From: Fodinibius saliphilus
Lineage (GTDB): Bacteria; Bacteroidota; Rhodothermia; Balneolales; Balneolaceae
Direction: 5' to 3'
DNA length: 64,000 nucleotides
Assembly: GCF_005869845.1 (NCBI RefSeq)
Contig: NZ_VAWF01000003.1
Location: 248,001 to 312,000 of the forward strand
Of this stretch, positions 23,893 through 34,607 are shown piece by piece. The notes under the pieces are model-generated. The model did not search any database, was not told the origin of the DNA, and saw nothing but the letters and a program-made list of their open reading frames with translations. Position 1 is the stretch's first letter; each line of letters begins with the position of its first letter. Made by a program: the position numbers and the translations under genes.

Positions 23893-26121
23893 TTATCTAA
23901 TGTTAAGACGTGCACCTATTGAAAAAGTACGCCCTATAACAGGTCCCCAGGTGTAGATAGTATCAAATTCAGCTCCAAAAGGGTTATTAGCATCAACAAG
24001 TGGGCTGCCCTGTGTATAATTGAAAATGTTTTCAACAGATATATAGGTTTCAATACCGAGGCCGTTTTTACTGTTTACGTTAGTGAACTCTTTTGTCACT
24101 TTGAAATCATGCGTAGCGTAAGTTGGAGACCACCGGTCGCGGCCAAAGTTTTGCACATAGTTATCGGGCATACGTTTCGGCCCCACCAAATTGCCGGTGT
24201 AGCTGGCCTTCAGGTCCCAGGATCGCTGCCAATAGGTCAGACCCCAAGAGCCGGTAAAGTCGGGGGCATAGGTGAGCGACTGCTTTTGGCCATTCTCTTT
24301 TGTGAACACATCCATTAGCGTGAAGCTCATGTTATAACTGATGGGCATAGCTGTAAAGTTTTGATCTGCTTCGATAGAAAAGCCCTGTGTTACGGAATGA
24401 CCATTCAGGTTTTCGTAAACAATAAGATTTGGATCTTGGTCGTAATCAGGGATGATCTTATTTGAAAAACGAGTAAAGAAACCATCAAGGCCTAATGTTA
24501 GCGGATTACCGGAAAAGGGCAGGATATGTTTTATGCTTCCTGTTATACTGCGTGATTGTTCGGGATCTAGATTCTCGGCAAAAACGACTTCTCTTGAGCC
24601 GGTTAAGGCTGCGTGATCTTCGGTAAATACATTAACGACCCGAAAACCGGTACCACCACTAATTCGAAAGGTTGTATTATTGCTTGTACTGTATTTTACG
24701 GAAAGACGGGGGGCTGTAACGAATCCATGTTCATCGTGATGATCGAGGCGGAGACCACCGAGTAGCATCAGACCATCATAGGTGAACTGACCTTGGGTAA
24801 AGACACCGGGTATAAAGCGTTTATCAGTGCCATTGGAGGTAGCAGGGGTATTATCATCATACGTTTGGTAGCGTGCGGTTAGGCCGGTCAATAGCGTGAA
24901 ATGATCTTTAAGTGACTGGTCCCAGGTGACCTGCCCATATATAATACCTTGTTCTGCATCGTAGTGTTCTGGACCATAAAAACTATCTTGGCTGTGATAG
25001 GTGAGGGCTCCGCTAATTCGCAGCTGTTGATTTAACCCCGCCGGGCGATAATCAGTAAGTAGTTCAGCGCGCTCAGTATAAATCGATTCGCCATAGACTT
25101 GATTCGACCCACGAAGATCATCAGAGAAGGCCTTTACCCCGCCCGTTCGGTTTTCATTATAGTATTTAGTTGCAAAATTTAATCGTTGCTCACCATTTTT
25201 GCCTTTCAGAATACCTTTACCAAAAAGCGAAATTCGCGATCGTTTGGCAACATCATTAAAACTGTCGCCATTGTTATCAAAATAATTTTCCATGCGAACC
25301 GCATTACCACTAATAAAACCGCTAAGTTGACCAGCTTGGGGAGAAGCAGCAAGATTGATATTACTCTCCTTCGTACTTTTAGTATATGCGTCAACCGAAA
25401 ATGTAGGGGTATTCTTCGGATTCTTGGTAATAATATTTACAACCCCGCCTAGCGCCTGGGTACCGTACAGGGTAGATTGTGGCCCCTTTATTACTTCTAC
25501 CTGATCAATAATTGAAGGACTGATGCCATTTAGACCGTATACACTGGCTAATGCTCCCATAATAGGCATGCCATCGATAAGTACAGCAGTGTTTGGACCT
25601 TCAACACCATTAATGCGAATGGCATTGGTGCCACAAACGCCACAATTTAATTGAGTAGAGAGCCCGCTCACATTATCTATAAGATCCATAATGTTTGAGC
25701 TGGTTTTACCCTGCTGAAGGCGCTGCGGTTTAATAACAGCTACCTTTACCGGGGAATCCTTGACAAAGGTTTCACGCATGGTTCCAGTGACGACGACTTC
25801 ATCAAGTTGTTCCGTTTTGGCTTTAAGCTGGATATCAAGGTTAATCGTTTTCTCCTCTTGAATGGTAATCTCTTGACTATACTTTTTATACCCTACAGCT
25901 GAGACGACTATCGTATAAGTACCGGGAATAATATTGTTGATTTTGAAAGTACCATCGTTGTTGGAAGGAGTTCCTTTTTGGAGTTGGGTAATAATTACAT
26001 TGGCTCCTGCTACAGTTTTTTCATTATTGTAAATAGTTCCTTTTATGATACCACCAGATTGTCCTATAGCAACAATCGGGATTGTAATGAAAAGTATTAA
26101 TAGTATTGAGTAGCGAAACAT
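23893..26121 (-). CDS. TonB-dependent outer-membrane receptor 1
   Basis: 742-residue receptor: signal peptide (to IAIGQ, about 21), carboxypeptidase-regulatory-like beta-sandwich (about 24-105), plug domain (about 120-225; DEVVVTGTM then the cysteine motif NCGVCGTNAIRINGVEGP, then IEVIKGPQSTLYG-type end), and a 22-strand barrel ending FSIGARLNIR. The CxxC pair in the plug is typical of a subgroup next to iron/heme and copper genes. It is followed 8 bases later by a thioredoxin and preceded by its own operator region and the terminator of the PepSY gene. Ligand probably an iron compound (inference from the DtxR-like box and PepSY neighbour). Confidence 0.92.
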   Translation of the reverse strand: MFRYSILLILFITIPIVAIGQSGGIIKGTIYNNEKTVAGANVIITQLQKGTPSNNDGTFKINNIIPGTYTIVVSAVGYKKYSQEITIQEEKTINLDIQLKAKTEQLDEVVVTGTMRETFVKDSPVKVAVIKPQRLQQGKTSSNIMDLIDNVSGLSTQLNCGVCGTNAIRINGVEGPNTAVLIDGMPIMGALASVYGLNGISPSIIDQVEVIKGPQSTLYGTQALGGVVNIITKNPKNTPTFSVDAYTKSTKESNINLAASPQAGQLSGFISGNAVRMENYFDNNGDSFNDVAKRSRISLFGKGILKGKNGEQRLNFATKYYNENRTGGVKAFSDDLRGSNQVYGESIYTERAELLTDYRPAGLNQQLRISGALTYHSQDSFYGPEHYDAEQGIIYGQVTWDQSLKDHFTLLTGLTARYQTYDDNTPATSNGTDKRFIPGVFTQGQFTYDGLMLLGGLRLDHHDEHGFVTAPRLSVKYSTSNNTTFRISGGTGFRVVNVFTEDHAALTGSREVVFAENLDPEQSRSITGSIKHILPFSGNPLTLGLDGFFTRFSNKIIPDYDQDPNLIVYENLNGHSVTQGFSIEADQNFTAMPISYNMSFTLMDVFTKENGQKQSLTYAPDFTGSWGLTYWQRSWDLKASYTGNLVGPKRMPDNYVQNFGRDRWSPTYATHDFKVTKEFTNVNSKNGLGIETYISVENIFNYTQGSPLVDANNPFGAEFDTIYTWGPVIGRTFSIGARLNIR

Positions 26122-26159: not shown

Positions 26160-26192
26160 TTAAGGCTAGTCTAATTTTTAGTCAAGACTAAA
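26160..26192 (-). promoter_or_regulatory. DtxR-like box and adjoining perfect palindrome before TonB receptor 1
   Basis: Bases 26161-26179 match the DtxR/IdeR operator consensus (TTAGGTTAGSCTAACCTAA) at 12 of 19 positions, core AAGGCTAGTCTAA. Immediately next, 26177-26192 is the perfect palindrome TTTAGTCAAGACTAAA. Both lie 39-71 bases upstream of the receptor start, where a repressor would block transcription. The 14 bases 26175-26188 are also identical to the right end of the IS1595-like element at 33952-34607. Confidence 0.5.
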
Positions 26193-29781: not shown

Positions 29782-30768
29782 TTACTTAGCGGTTTCTCCC
29801 GTATCGTTGTTTTTTATGGCTTGGGTTACGGAGGTAACTAAAAAGTCACTGACAAGTGGATGAGGAAGTAGTGCTTCGCCACTCCATTTAAATTCCAGTC
29901 CTTCTAAGCGTTTTGCCACGGCATGTTCACGTCCGCCGGATGACAAAAATAGTGGAACCACAATAACATCACCGAAATGGCCGGTTTGACGTACCACATT
30001 ACGGAACTGTTGTTTGGCTTGTTCATGAATCTGTTCATTCGCGTCATCGCGCACTGTTAAAGCAAATATCTGTTTAAAACCCTCACCCTTATTCTTTTGG
30101 AAATCCTGCACTTTACGTGTAAGCGATTCCATATTCTCAACCCATTTAATATTGTCTTTTCCTCGATTTGGGCCGTGGCCGGCAATGACTACTGTTTCAT
30201 TAGAGGGCTCTTCGCTCAACTTTATGATGCGATCATGCAAAATTTGGGCAACCAGATCATGGTCATCCAGGGCAGGGGTCATTGTCACTTTGGCATCTAT
30301 TTCCAGTGGTTGCAGGTTTTCGGGAATGAGCATGCCGTGCACCAACTGTGACGAATCGGTGTTTTCTTTGCCCACCATAGCAAGGTATTCATCTTTATGG
30401 TGCATCAGTGGCATTGGATCATCTGCAAGCGTATCACGAAGCCCCAGAAGGTATTCCGTTTGGCGGATTATAGGGCTGTGGCTTGAAATAAACAGTGGTA
30501 TTGTTATAATTTTATTAATCCCTTTCTTTTCCAGCTCTTCAATACTGTTATGCATGGTTACGGCATTGGCCATACCGAAAGCAACTTCAACAGAGTAGTC
30601 TTTTTTGAGTGGTTGTGCGGCTTCCACAACAGCGTCATTCCACTGATCACTACCGCCATGTGCCAGGATAAGAACTCCTGTATCTTGAGCTGTAACGCTG
30701 GAAACTATAGTACTCAAGACTAGAAGAAATATAAATAGTAGTTTAGAAGTCAGGTATTTGGTAAACAT
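29782..30768 (-). CDS. Exported CbiX-like sirohydrochlorin chelatase homologue
   Basis: 328 residues with a Sec signal peptide (LLFIFLLVLSTIVSSVTAQ, cleavage about 28) followed by two class II chelatase (CbiX) half-domains. First half: GVLILAHGGSDQWNDAV, with the catalytic-position His. Second half begins ETVVIAGHGPNRGKDN, and the C-terminal half-domain contains VVPLFLSSGGREHAVAKRL. Cytoplasmic CbiX inserts Co or Fe in sirohydrochlorin; an exported form next to an outer-membrane heme receptor and an HmuY protein suggests action on imported tetrapyrroles, as proposed for the periplasmic CbiK of Desulfovibrio vulgaris. Third gene of the HmuR-HmuY-CbiX operon, 106 bases after HmuY. Confidence 0.85.
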   Translation of the reverse strand: MFTKYLTSKLLFIFLLVLSTIVSSVTAQDTGVLILAHGGSDQWNDAVVEAAQPLKKDYSVEVAFGMANAVTMHNSIEELEKKGINKIITIPLFISSHSPIIRQTEYLLGLRDTLADDPMPLMHHKDEYLAMVGKENTDSSQLVHGMLIPENLQPLEIDAKVTMTPALDDHDLVAQILHDRIIKLSEEPSNETVVIAGHGPNRGKDNIKWVENMESLTRKVQDFQKNKGEGFKQIFALTVRDDANEQIHEQAKQQFRNVVRQTGHFGDVIVVPLFLSSGGREHAVAKRLEGLEFKWSGEALLPHPLVSDFLVTSVTQAIKNNDTGETAK

Positions 30769-30874: not shown

Positions 30875-31510
30875 TTATTTGAATTCGCGTGTACCGTTTA
30901 GTTGAATTACATATTCAAAAGTGTAGTATCCTGAAGGATACTTTTCAGGATTATTTTTAAATTCGTCACTGGATAAATCGGGATTATCCTTGTTATAACT
31001 TATGATTTTTAATTTGGCATAGTGTTCTCCATCAGCTGTTTTAAGAACAATAGTTTTGTCTTCAATGGGAGTTATGAGATGGTTCGATGGATTATAATTG
31101 TACCAACCATTGCCACTACCCGTAGGAATAGCCATGGATTCTTTCGTATCTGAATTGTAGCCTTTAGAAGGAGCGATTTCAGTAGCGTCAAATGATTGGT
31201 CTAATACAATGGCACCTCCTTCACCGGGGCCGCTTATACCATTATTGATATAGATGGTTGTTCGGGATAAAGCGATGTCCCATTTATCAGTAGTAGAATC
31301 GGCTTTCTCTACTAATTTATTTTTACGAAGGTTATAATAGGCTGTATCGGCAGCTCTGTAGCTTCCGGTTCCGATATTTTCAACAGTATGGGATTCGATT
31401 TGTGAGGGGGCATCGGTGACTCCAGTGGTAGAATCATTACAGGCTGTGAATATGAAAGCAATTACTGCAGCAAAGAGTGGTAGGGTTAGAGTCTTTTGAG
31501 ATGGTAACAT
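30875..31510 (-). CDS. HmuY family heme-binding lipoprotein
   Basis: 211 residues, lipoprotein signal peptide with Cys24 (FIFTAC). The mature part matches the HmuY family: YYNLRKNKLVEK, TTDKWDIALSRTTIYINNGI with the GPGEGGA stretch, and the C-terminal PSGYYTFEYVIQLNGTREFK. Surface-exposed HmuY proteins seize heme and pass it to the TonB receptor. The axial His pair of Porphyromonas HmuY is not obviously conserved; His41, His144 and His162 are the only candidates I noticed. It starts 26 bases after the receptor gene. Confidence 0.88.
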   Translation of the reverse strand: MLPSQKTLTLPLFAAVIAFIFTACNDSTTGVTDAPSQIESHTVENIGTGSYRAADTAYYNLRKNKLVEKADSTTDKWDIALSRTTIYINNGISGPGEGGAIVLDQSFDATEIAPSKGYNSDTKESMAIPTGSGNGWYNYNPSNHLITPIEDKTIVLKTADGEHYAKLKIISYNKDNPDLSSDEFKNNPEKYPSGYYTFEYVIQLNGTREFK

Positions 31511-31536: not shown

Positions 31537-33825
31537 TTAATAGAGTTGTAGTGATAACTTTCCGTAAAATTTTCGTCCGGGCAGGTACGACAAGTTGCCG
31601 GGACGGGTAAAACCAAACAGATTATCAATACCAAGCTGAAGGGTGAAGCGGTTATTAAAAGTTTTGGAAATAGCTGTTTTCCAGATTATAAAACTATCGC
31701 TGTATTCATCGCCGTCTACAAAATTATTGCCATTGATGTCTATAAGGCCATATTTCCCATGCCAGTTTCCTCGAATGTTGGCATTTATATCCAGAGTTTC
31801 CCAACGGTAAAAGATTTTTAGATTAGCCGAATGCTTGGATCGGTTAAACATCGGTTTATAGGACACAACATTCTTTTCTATGACCTCTCCATTGTCATCT
31901 TGCACTGTACGACTTTGTTCAATCTTTCGACGGGCATCAAGCAATTGATATCCGCCCGTTATTTTCAGCTGTCGGATGGGCGTCCAACGAAGTTGAGCTT
32001 CAATACCCTGGGTGTAAACTTCTTCAAGGTTAAGATAGCTAAATACCGATTGTCCATTCGTTTTATGAGCGATTGGAGCAGTCTCAATAAGATCGTCAAC
32101 ATTGTTTCGAAAGAAGTTAAGTTGTAAGCTCAGCTGTTTTCTGGGGTGTAGGTTGATACCAAAATTATAAGCCCAAGAATGTTCAGCTTTAATTTCTTTG
32201 AGTTGGTCCAGAGGTAGTAGTTGTTGTTTTATTTTGCCATCAGCCTGTAGTAAACGCACCTTTTCTTTAACATTACTAGAACCAAATACACTGTATCCTA
32301 CGGTAGGATTGGTGAAGTTGAGAAACAATTGACGAAAGTCAGGGGCCTTGAAGCCACTACCTGCGGATGCCCGTAGATCTAACCAATCAATTATTTCAAA
32401 TCGGACTGATAGTTTAGGACTAAATTGTGAGCTATATTCACTGTGGGCATCATAACGAAGGCCCCCAATAATACTCAGGAGATCGGTAGACAGCCATTCA
32501 TGTTGTATAAACCCAAAATAACTATTGAAGACGGGAGTGCCAGCATAGCGTTTTGCCTTCAACTGTTCATCTTTAAAACCAATTCCTGTTGTGGTAGCGT
32601 GCTTAGCATTCCAGTTTTGATTAAGCTGTAGTTCCAACTTGTTAAAATATTGGTCAAATATTGATCGGGTATAGAGGCTGTCCCCCTGTTGGAAATGTAA
32701 TTGCGTATCTGTGCGGTAACGGCTAAAATAGTGCGATAACTCTACTGTTGTTTTTGAACCAAGATCGAAATGCAGGGTAGGAGAAATGCTGTAATCTTCT
32801 TGCAAAGCCTCATCATCCAGTAGTGTAGGATTATCCTGCTTCCCCAGGTAATCAGTATTATGTTGCTTTTCACGATAATATCGACCCTGAAACTCCGCAT
32901 CTATATGATCAGAAATCATTACCTCAGTATGGTATGAGACTGTGTAGTTCGCATATTCAGGAACAGTTTGAGAAAGGGCATTGGAGGACAGGCTGTACCC
33001 TTCAGAGCTATTGCGGTTAAAAAAGAAATCGTTTTTCCAGCCTTTTTTTTCTGTAGAAATATTCAAACCCAGGTCCATGGTTTGGTTGGTTGCATAGCGG
33101 CTATCGATCCCGAGTTCAAAGGGACGAGTTCCCTTTTGGGTAATGATATTGACAACCCCAGCCAAGGCATCACTTCCCCACAAAGCTGAAGAAGGTCCTT
33201 TAATAATTTCAACTTGTTTAATATTACCAATTGCAATCCGGTCAAGGTTAAAGGTACCAGCAGTTCGCCCAATCAGTGGCTGTCCGTCTATCATGATTTT
33301 GGTGTATTCCGAGGAAAATCCTTGTACCTGTAAGCCAGTGCCATGATTAGTAGTGAGGGTAAGGCCAGTTTGTTCAGTAAGAACAGTACTGAGGCGGTTA
33401 GTACCTAATGATTCGATCTGTTTTTTAGAAATGACGGTAACTGGTTCCGGTACTTCTTCAAGTTCACGAACGGTACGGGTAGCAGTTACTACTACGGAAG
33501 GAGACCAATAACGTTTGTGCTTAAGGTGAAATGTCAGGGGCTTTTGTTCACTGCTCAAATCGATGCTGCTGTGAATAGCTTGATAGCCTACATGGCTGAT
33601 TGTGAGATCGTAAATCCCATTAGGCAGTGATGAAAAGCGGAATTTCCCGTTTTCATCAGATATAGCATGGTAATGATTACTTCCAATAATTATATGAGCA
33701 TTTGCTATAGCTTGGCCTCCCTCACTGAGCACTTTTCCTGATAGGGATTGAGAATGTTGGGCATCTGCGGGAATACCGTATGCAGAGCAGATAAGAATGA
33801 GAAGTAGGCACCAGATATTTTTCAT
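31537..33825 (-). CDS. TonB-dependent heme receptor (HmuR-like)
   Basis: 762 residues from the ATG at 33825 (MKNIWCLLLILICSAYGIPA... signal peptide); the frame extends 34 codons upstream through the promoter and that part is not protein-like. Carboxypeptidase-regulatory-like domain (about 25-105), plug (about 110-225, WSPSVVVTATRTVRELEEV, IEIIKGPSSALWGSDALAG), and barrel to the C-terminal Tyr (KLSLQLY). First gene of an operon with HmuY and an exported CbiX-like protein, which defines heme or a related tetrapyrrole as the likely ligand. The FRAP/NPNL-type heme motif was not located with certainty. Confidence 0.9.
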   Translation of the reverse strand: MKNIWCLLLILICSAYGIPADAQHSQSLSGKVLSEGGQAIANAHIIIGSNHYHAISDENGKFRFSSLPNGIYDLTISHVGYQAIHSSIDLSSEQKPLTFHLKHKRYWSPSVVVTATRTVRELEEVPEPVTVISKKQIESLGTNRLSTVLTEQTGLTLTTNHGTGLQVQGFSSEYTKIMIDGQPLIGRTAGTFNLDRIAIGNIKQVEIIKGPSSALWGSDALAGVVNIITQKGTRPFELGIDSRYATNQTMDLGLNISTEKKGWKNDFFFNRNSSEGYSLSSNALSQTVPEYANYTVSYHTEVMISDHIDAEFQGRYYREKQHNTDYLGKQDNPTLLDDEALQEDYSISPTLHFDLGSKTTVELSHYFSRYRTDTQLHFQQGDSLYTRSIFDQYFNKLELQLNQNWNAKHATTTGIGFKDEQLKAKRYAGTPVFNSYFGFIQHEWLSTDLLSIIGGLRYDAHSEYSSQFSPKLSVRFEIIDWLDLRASAGSGFKAPDFRQLFLNFTNPTVGYSVFGSSNVKEKVRLLQADGKIKQQLLPLDQLKEIKAEHSWAYNFGINLHPRKQLSLQLNFFRNNVDDLIETAPIAHKTNGQSVFSYLNLEEVYTQGIEAQLRWTPIRQLKITGGYQLLDARRKIEQSRTVQDDNGEVIEKNVVSYKPMFNRSKHSANLKIFYRWETLDINANIRGNWHGKYGLIDINGNNFVDGDEYSDSFIIWKTAISKTFNNRFTLQLGIDNLFGFTRPGNLSYLPGRKFYGKLSLQLY

Positions 33826-33880
33826 TCCAAAAACTTGAATTTTATTTAGACTGTGTTTAAATAGTGAGGCATAAATATAA

Positions 33881-33897
33881 TTTAGAATAGTTCTAAA
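33881..33897 (-). promoter_or_regulatory. Perfect inverted repeat in the heme-operon promoter
   Basis: TTTAGAATAGTTCTAAA, two perfect 7-base arms around TAG, lies 56 bases upstream of the heme-receptor start and is followed (minus strand) by TTATATTTATG, a plausible -10 region. The same block, slightly changed, occurs upstream of the PepSY gene. Consistent with a dimeric iron-dependent repressor site; which regulator binds is not known. Confidence 0.6.
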
Positions 33898-33951
33898 TAA
33901 AAGAAGGCTCTCAATTTTCCATTGCAAAGAAATTAGTGGATAGAAATGAGG

Positions 33952-34607
33952 GGGCTTGACTAAAACAAGAAAAGGTTAATAGCTGTAAGTTATTGCTTAG
34001 CAATGGATAATAAGTATGTTAATCGTGCAAAAATATCTGAGTATAAATTTCGTGAACTGGCTCGTCTTTTTGCACTTGATTTGACGGCTACTCAAATAGC
34101 TGAACTGTCGGGATTAAATAGGAATACAGTTAATCGTTATTTAAAAGGAATTAGGTTGGGGATAGCAGATTATTGTGACTGTCAGGGACCGTTGAATAAG
34201 GCAGGTAAAGAGGGCTTTGAAGAGGGAATAAATCAGAGCGATTTTTGTGTAGGTATCTGTGAGAAGGAGGGAAATATTTATACTTGTATTATAGATAGTT
34301 ATGCCTGTTTAAATGCTAAAACAGAAGTTTATTGCATGTTGGATGTTTTTGTTAACTTTTCCCGGGGTAAGCAAAAATGGTTGTTAGATCGAGATGAATT
34401 ATTAAAAAAAGAACCAGCAAAAGTTAGCTGTATTTCAGGTTTTAAAGGATTTCTGAAATCCCGACTAGAAAAGTTTAAAGGGATTCATCATGAGACCTAT
34501 CGACTGCATCTTAAAGAGTCAGAATTTAGGTTCAATAATCCCAAAGAAGATTTATACCTATTGATGCTTAAAATATTCAGGAATGACCCGCTTTTTTAGT
34601 CAAGACC
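33952..34607 (+). mobile_element. 656-bp IS1595-like element, degenerate
   Basis: Ends are inverted repeats: left GGGCTTGACTAAAA (33952-33965) and right, reverse-complemented, GGTCTTGACTAAAA (34607-34594), 13 of 14 matching. Size and the position of the single gene, whose stop lies inside the right repeat, fit compact IS1595 (ISXO2/IS1016-type) elements. No matching target duplication flanks it (aaatgagg versus tgaacagc), so the insertion is old. Confidence 0.65.
34003..34599 (+). CDS. IS1595-type transposase derivative lacking catalytic residues
   Basis: 198 residues, uninterrupted. The N-terminal helix-turn-helix matches IS1595/ISXO2 transposases well (KFRELARLFALDLTATQIAE, LSGLNRNTVNRYLKGIR), and so does the C-terminus (GFKGFLKSRLEKFKGIHHET, YRLHLKESEFRFNN). 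The middle, where the family has DESYFG, the HSDGW-type second Asp and the HxNGIEGFWG block, is shortened and replaced: none of the acidic catalytic residues is recognisable. Eight cysteines are present (58, 60, 82, 86, 95, 102, 111, 143), including CxC and CxxxC. An intact frame with a dead active site suggests it is retained as a DNA-binding protein. It is divergent from the heme operon. Confidence 0.8.
   Translation: MDNKYVNRAKISEYKFRELARLFALDLTATQIAELSGLNRNTVNRYLKGIRLGIADYCDCQGPLNKAGKEGFEEGINQSDFCVGICEKEGNIYTCIIDSYACLNAKTEVYCMLDVFVNFSRGKQKWLLDRDELLKKEPAKVSCISGFKGFLKSRLEKFKGIHHETYRLHLKESEFRFNNPKEDLYLLMLKIFRNDPLF

Follow-up and report, generated by a model that had tools for sequence, protein, structure and literature searches.

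A domesticated IS1595-type transposase beside the heme receptor gene hmuR in Balneolales is a probable end-binding regulator

In the 64,000-nt stretch of the Fodinibius saliphilus genome analysed here (the window), an intact ORF of 198 codons (34003..34599, plus strand) encodes a 198-aa protein that appears to be a domesticated, catalysis-dead transposase of the IS1595 type. Our favored reading, which we regard as probable, is that an IS1595 element was fixed beside hmuR, lost its catalytic core and now serves as an end-binding regulator of itself and hmuRY. A preliminary description of this DNA had already reported the ORF as intact and its product as apparently domesticated, and had named the position of orthologues, dN/dS and structure prediction as checks. 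Comparative sequence data now lend good support to domestication, as orthologues lie beside heme receptor genes, the ORF is under purifying selection and the DDE core is lost. The findings which that description had set against its own proposal, namely homologues at many loci, an intact active site or a dN/dS near 1, were not encountered for the ORF family.

The ORF sits between hmuR on the minus strand and a permease gene on the plus strand. The protein scored 22.2 bits against the NCBIfam model NF033547 (cut-off 75), with the C-terminus alone matching, and Pfam profiles detected the HTH alone, under the Pfam cut-offs; these profiles relate it to IS1595 and not to TnpB. The identity to active IS1595 transposases outside its own group, which come from several phyla, is 36-43%. 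Kinship to IS1595-type transposases is thus clear from the alignments, while homology to the family model falls under the cut-off and the profile-level match is that of a remnant. A search among the sequences of solved structures with the 198-aa protein gave no match. The N-terminal HTH (codons 1-52, 34003..34158, plus strand) and the C-terminal segment had been assigned to the IS1595 type before, and both align with active relatives without gaps. The recognition helix, LNRNTVNRY, is common to the protein and to active IS1595 elements with CWTGACTA ends.

Between these parts, codons 53-138 (34159..34416, plus strand) correspond to a collapsed remnant of the DDE core, as judged from the gaps against 24 active transposases. 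The deletions in the alignment remove both Asp-bearing parts, namely the strand of the first catalytic residue (VDESYFG in active relatives) and the segment of the second (SDGWRGY). The conserved C-terminal helices (codons 139-198, 34417..34596, plus strand) have lost the third catalytic position, where GIEGFW of active relatives is replaced by CISGFK. The earlier remarks that the catalytic acidic residues are unrecognizable and the middle shortened agree with these changes. An AlphaFold2 model of the protein was confident (pLDDT 83.6, pTM 0.82) and lacks the first RNase H strand of the active-relative model. In fold comparison, its best structural matches (Z 5-6) were HTH domains such as the ones in the transposases Tc3A and IstA, and no integrase-core match was obtained. 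As a control, an active relative encoded in a Nitrospirae genome was modelled likewise, and its residues 65-207 matched retroviral integrase and transposase cores with Z of ~10. Since the control matched such cores and the 198-aa model did not, a core would have been detectable if present, and the models indicate that the DDE core is lost. Re-examination of the Foldseek matches for a relative of the collapsed middle found none, which does not show absence.

The ORF is single-copy in the window's genome, which carries no other IS1595. We searched 147 relatives and found full-length intact orthologues with 36-69% identity in ten, within the Balneolales, and a broken copy in an eleventh (G047). 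In the tree, nine orthologues group with the window's copy in a single clade (support 99/95) that excludes active elements; the remaining orthologue (G087) has a long branch and its position is unsure. The HmuR tree contains the same two subclades and the same pairs as the ORF tree. Three genomes inside the HmuR subclades, G003, G002 and G013, are devoid of the gene; G013 is an incomplete MAG, the contig of which extends well past hmuR. Because the two trees agree and the absences are nested, one gain followed by a few losses is the best reading. The mobility of an IS1595 element is not evident, as the gene is found as a single copy at the same site across species.

The strength of selection was estimated by NG86 on the closest pair of orthologues (G006-G011), because saturation made YN00 fail on most pairs; the dN/dS values rest on this pair since the others are saturated at synonymous sites. 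The dN/dS over the whole ORF is 0.12 (bootstrap 0.07-0.20), indicating strong purifying selection in this pair, and that of HmuR in the same genomes is 0.13. Within the ORF, the value is 0.015 for the HTH (bootstrap 0-0.05) and 0.03 for the C-terminus, in contrast to 0.35 for the middle linker. The HTH is the most constrained part, consistent with a retained end-binding domain in view of its recognition helix and the model, and the core remnant evolves fast. That the ORF belongs to a dying IS and is still open by chance is scarcely credible: the broken copy in G047 would fit such decay, but the dN/dS and the conservation of ten intact orthologues refute it.

The protein contains eight cysteines, as had been counted before. 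The accompanying proposal of a metal or redox site did not hold as a general feature, and we rejected such a site as common to the orthologues, because C58 is the only cysteine present in most of them and most of the others form a cluster confined to a subclade of three Fodinibius species.

The element retains both of its ends. The left end, GGGCTTGACTAAAA (33952..33965, plus strand), lies in the intergenic region between hmuR and the transposase-derived gene, and the right end, GGTCTTGACTAAAA (34594..34607, minus strand), overlaps the TAG stop codon of the latter. In accordance with the preliminary description, the two are identical in 13 of 14 bases, and no target duplication was seen at the window's element. 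The exact pattern GGNCTTGACTAAAA has one further occurrence in the 3.6-Mb genome, within an unrelated gene. Active relatives with the helix LNRNTVNRY end in GGGTCWTGACTAG; their right end overlaps the TAG stop, their left end is located 48-55 bp upstream of the start codon, and exact 8-bp target duplications flank nine of the 16. By this comparison, the window's repeats correspond to the ends of the ancestral IS (CWTGACTA), and we regard both as probable operators.

The ends are conserved among the orthologous loci. In eight of ten loci, CWTGACT occupies position -47/-48 relative to the start codon, while the left site is shifted to -88 in G066 and degenerate in G090, and no CWTGACTA site is left in G087. 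From the stop codon through position +6, the ten loci have a pairwise identity of 0.85, versus 0.26 beyond +10. CWTGACTA occurs 24 times in 2.6 kb of gene flanks versus eight times in the remaining 190 kb of the loci, i.e. ~220-fold more densely. The end motif is absent near the promoters of all 17 hmuR orthologues inspected that lack the transposase gene. Judged by these alignments and by dN/dS, both ends of the protein are under purifying selection and both DNA ends are under selection as well.

We also observed a third, inverted CWTGACTA site 39-42 bp past the stop codon in seven of ten loci, a distance of about four helical turns (e.g. L033:10228-10279 and the right flanks of L034, L035, L036, L037 and L038); it has been lost in the window's subclade. 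Separately, in five active IS1595 elements (L054, L068, L071, L073 and L117) the end site is repeated in inverted orientation 37 bp inward of the left end and close to the start codon, where it possibly serves autoregulation of the transposase. Because active relatives have this inner copy, binding close to the start may be older than the domestication.

Conserved ends that match those of active elements would also be expected of a non-autonomous element which is still mobilized in trans and keeps its ends for movement. We consider this highly improbable, because the element occupies the same position in all genomes, at protein identities of about 45-69%, as a single copy without target duplication, and the window's genome holds no matching transposase. 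Inactive transposase derivatives of other IS act as trans-dominant repressors, and the protein might likewise have been kept against transposition of resident IS1595 elements, active copies of which are found in some relatives such as G001 and G041. This explanation is very unlikely, if somewhat less so than mobilization: the window's genome has no other IS1595, the active copies in Balneolaceae differ from it in their ends (GGGTCTTATGAAG, GGGTCTAGTGAAG and GGGTCAAGACAACTT) and recognition helices, and the link to heme genes would be left unexplained. We rejected a repressor of resident copies on account of their different ends.

The genes facing the ORF are those of a probable heme uptake operon on the minus strand. 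hmuR (31537..33825; proposed start ATG at 33825) encodes a TonB-dependent heme receptor with Pfam Plug and TonB barrel domains, and is followed by hmuY for a HmuY-type heme-binding lipoprotein (30875..31510; Pfam HmuY, 4.7e-12) and by a CbiX-like chelatase-fold gene (29782..30768; Pfam CbiX, 4.5e-11), the last of which occurs in several orthologous loci but not all. The ORF does face hmuR, as first noted, with 177 bp between the start codons, and this spacing is kept at 167-187 bp across the loci. The orthologue is divergent to hmuR in nine of ten loci from four genera, which answers the question of position raised by the preliminary description; hmuY stands behind hmuR in seven of these nine, and one genus has hemS and genes for a periplasmic binding protein and an ABC transporter further along the operon. 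As the opposite flank differs between groups, the association is with hmuR and not that of a frozen region. Two palindromes precede hmuR (no strand assigned), TATTTAGACTGTGTTTAAATA (33843..33863), which is conserved in orthologous promoters, and ATTTAGAATAGTTCTAAAT (33880..33898), which is found also where the transposase gene is absent; both resemble iron-regulator boxes. Several of the 17 hmuR loci without the transposase gene keep a TTTAGA-TCTAAA palindrome.

The arrangement suggests the following scheme. An IS1595-type element would have been fixed beside hmuR in an ancestor within the Balneolales, and its transposase would have lost the DDE core to become a DNA-binding protein of the host. 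The protein is predicted to recognize CWTGACTA both in the left end, upstream of its own start codon on the side of hmuR, and in the right end, which overlaps its stop codon; it would probably do so as a dimer able to bridge both ends, as the behavior of transposases leads us to expect. The hmuR promoter appears to begin ~50 bp past the left end, at the palindromes of the probable iron regulator, and binding to the ends would regulate the gene itself as well as hmuRY on the opposite strand. The most likely function of the ORF product is thus that of an autoregulator that binds the ends and controls hmuRY, a repressor being more likely than an activator. In favor of this reading, the ends are absent where the gene is absent and both match active IS1595 ends.

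Several observations count against control of hmuRY. The gene is dispensable, since it is missing beside most hmuR genes of the Balneolales, where hmuR without it is common, and the left site has changed or disappeared in the three loci mentioned above. In F. sediminis (G001; L032:9335-9742), hmuR is reduced to an N-terminal relic with the promoter palindromes present, hmuY is gone and the ORF orthologue is intact, reflecting either a recent loss of hmuR or a role of the protein beyond its control. Candidate operators elsewhere in the genome could not be demonstrated: the end motif with one mismatch allowed yielded eight sites genome-wide versus 14 for the reversed control, giving no regulon signal. 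A CTTGACTA site at 26176-26189 lies ahead of a second TonB receptor gene (23893-26121). The palindrome around this site, TTTAGYCTTGRCTAAA, is kept in G007, and in a related form in G005 and G002, all without the transposase-derived gene. Across the orthologous promoters (L191-L199), the palindrome is kept in Fodinibius with and without the gene, and is probably an iron-regulator box. We rejected a wider regulon through the second TonB receptor for this reason; as the site belongs to another palindrome, no wider regulon is shown.

These observations leave some room for a domesticated end-binder whose main role is autoregulation together with an architectural function or the control of distant genes, hmuR being a hitch-hiker. 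The intact copy without hmuR in F. sediminis, the right end, which is ~640 bp from the left and equally conserved, and the lack of a visible iron-gene regulon point in this direction. We nevertheless judge it rather unlikely, because the hmuR side is retained in all loci across the four genera, as a relic in F. sediminis, while the opposite flank varies, and because the ORF tree follows the HmuR tree. Regulation of hmuRY from the element's own ends remains our preferred reading.

The search for relatives also yielded further intact IS1595-like proteins in other phyla that are short of a full catalytic set and have constant neighbors. Six loci in Neisseriales/Burkholderiales (L074, L100, L104, L106, L114 and L115) each carry, divergent to a nitronate monooxygenase-like gene, a gene for an IS1595-like protein devoid of DDE motifs, and probably represent a second domestication. 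In Campylobacterota (Sulfurovum and relatives), IS1595-like genes with damaged DDE motifs are located directly after aroE (L067:8001-8663, L070:7452-8132, L081:8001-8675 and L082:8001-8675), probably a third. The proteins of four Chlorobiales loci (L059, L060, L063 and L066) have no second Asp motif but retain the Glu as well as the first Asp or the residues around it; all are intact and single-copy, and the loci form two pairs that differ in their right-hand neighbors. Desulfobacterota possess single IS1595-like proteins without the full catalytic set. Most of the other dead proteins are single-copy in their own genomes, and they fall in several separate places of the tree, some on long branches. 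Their distribution makes it likely that the domestication of IS1595-type proteins is recurrent across phyla. Whether DDE transposases of this type became end-binding regulators many times, with the old inverted repeats as the first operators, is a broader generalization on which we are evenly divided; if true, TldR would have a protein-guided counterpart in these proteins, which, annotated as transposases today, would be an unrecognized source of regulators.

The protein resembles IS1595 family elements in its HTH and C-terminal helices and in terminal repeats matching in both sequence and position: the right repeat overlaps the stop codon, and ~48 bp separate the left end from the start. It differs from them in that the DDE core and target duplication are missing and that it is single-copy, fixed at one operon and vertically inherited. 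Our literature search, which covered few subscription papers, found no domesticated IS1595 and no transposase-derived regulator of hmuR. The change from transposase to transcription factor is well known in animals, where transposon-derived factors reuse DNA transposase domains as sequence-specific regulators (PMC10027918); the present case is bacterial, concerns a single operon and has the original element ends still in place. Bacterial HTH regulators derived from phages or antitoxins are recruits from mobile elements that were regulators already, and the passages of a review that our search retrieved name no DDE transposase turned bacterial transcription factor (PMC8987985). The nearest bacterial precedent, and the clear case that we found, is TldR, the RNA-guided, nuclease-dead repressors derived from TnpB (PMC13418256). 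In both cases an IS protein has lost catalysis and kept a stable link to a host gene together with DNA binding, which is predicted here; TldR has lost catalysis repeatedly and represses host promoters, whereas the 198-aa protein is a putative repressor. Because both element ends stay under selection, the sequence itself reveals how a terminal repeat would turn into an operator, and candidate operators and a target operon are offered in culturable species. By extension, host regulators may be hidden among the genes now annotated as IS1595 transposases. Unlike TldR, which arose from TnpB, an accessory protein, the catalytic transposase itself has here lost its core and kept a protein HTH for end binding, and the putative operators are the ends of the IS themselves.
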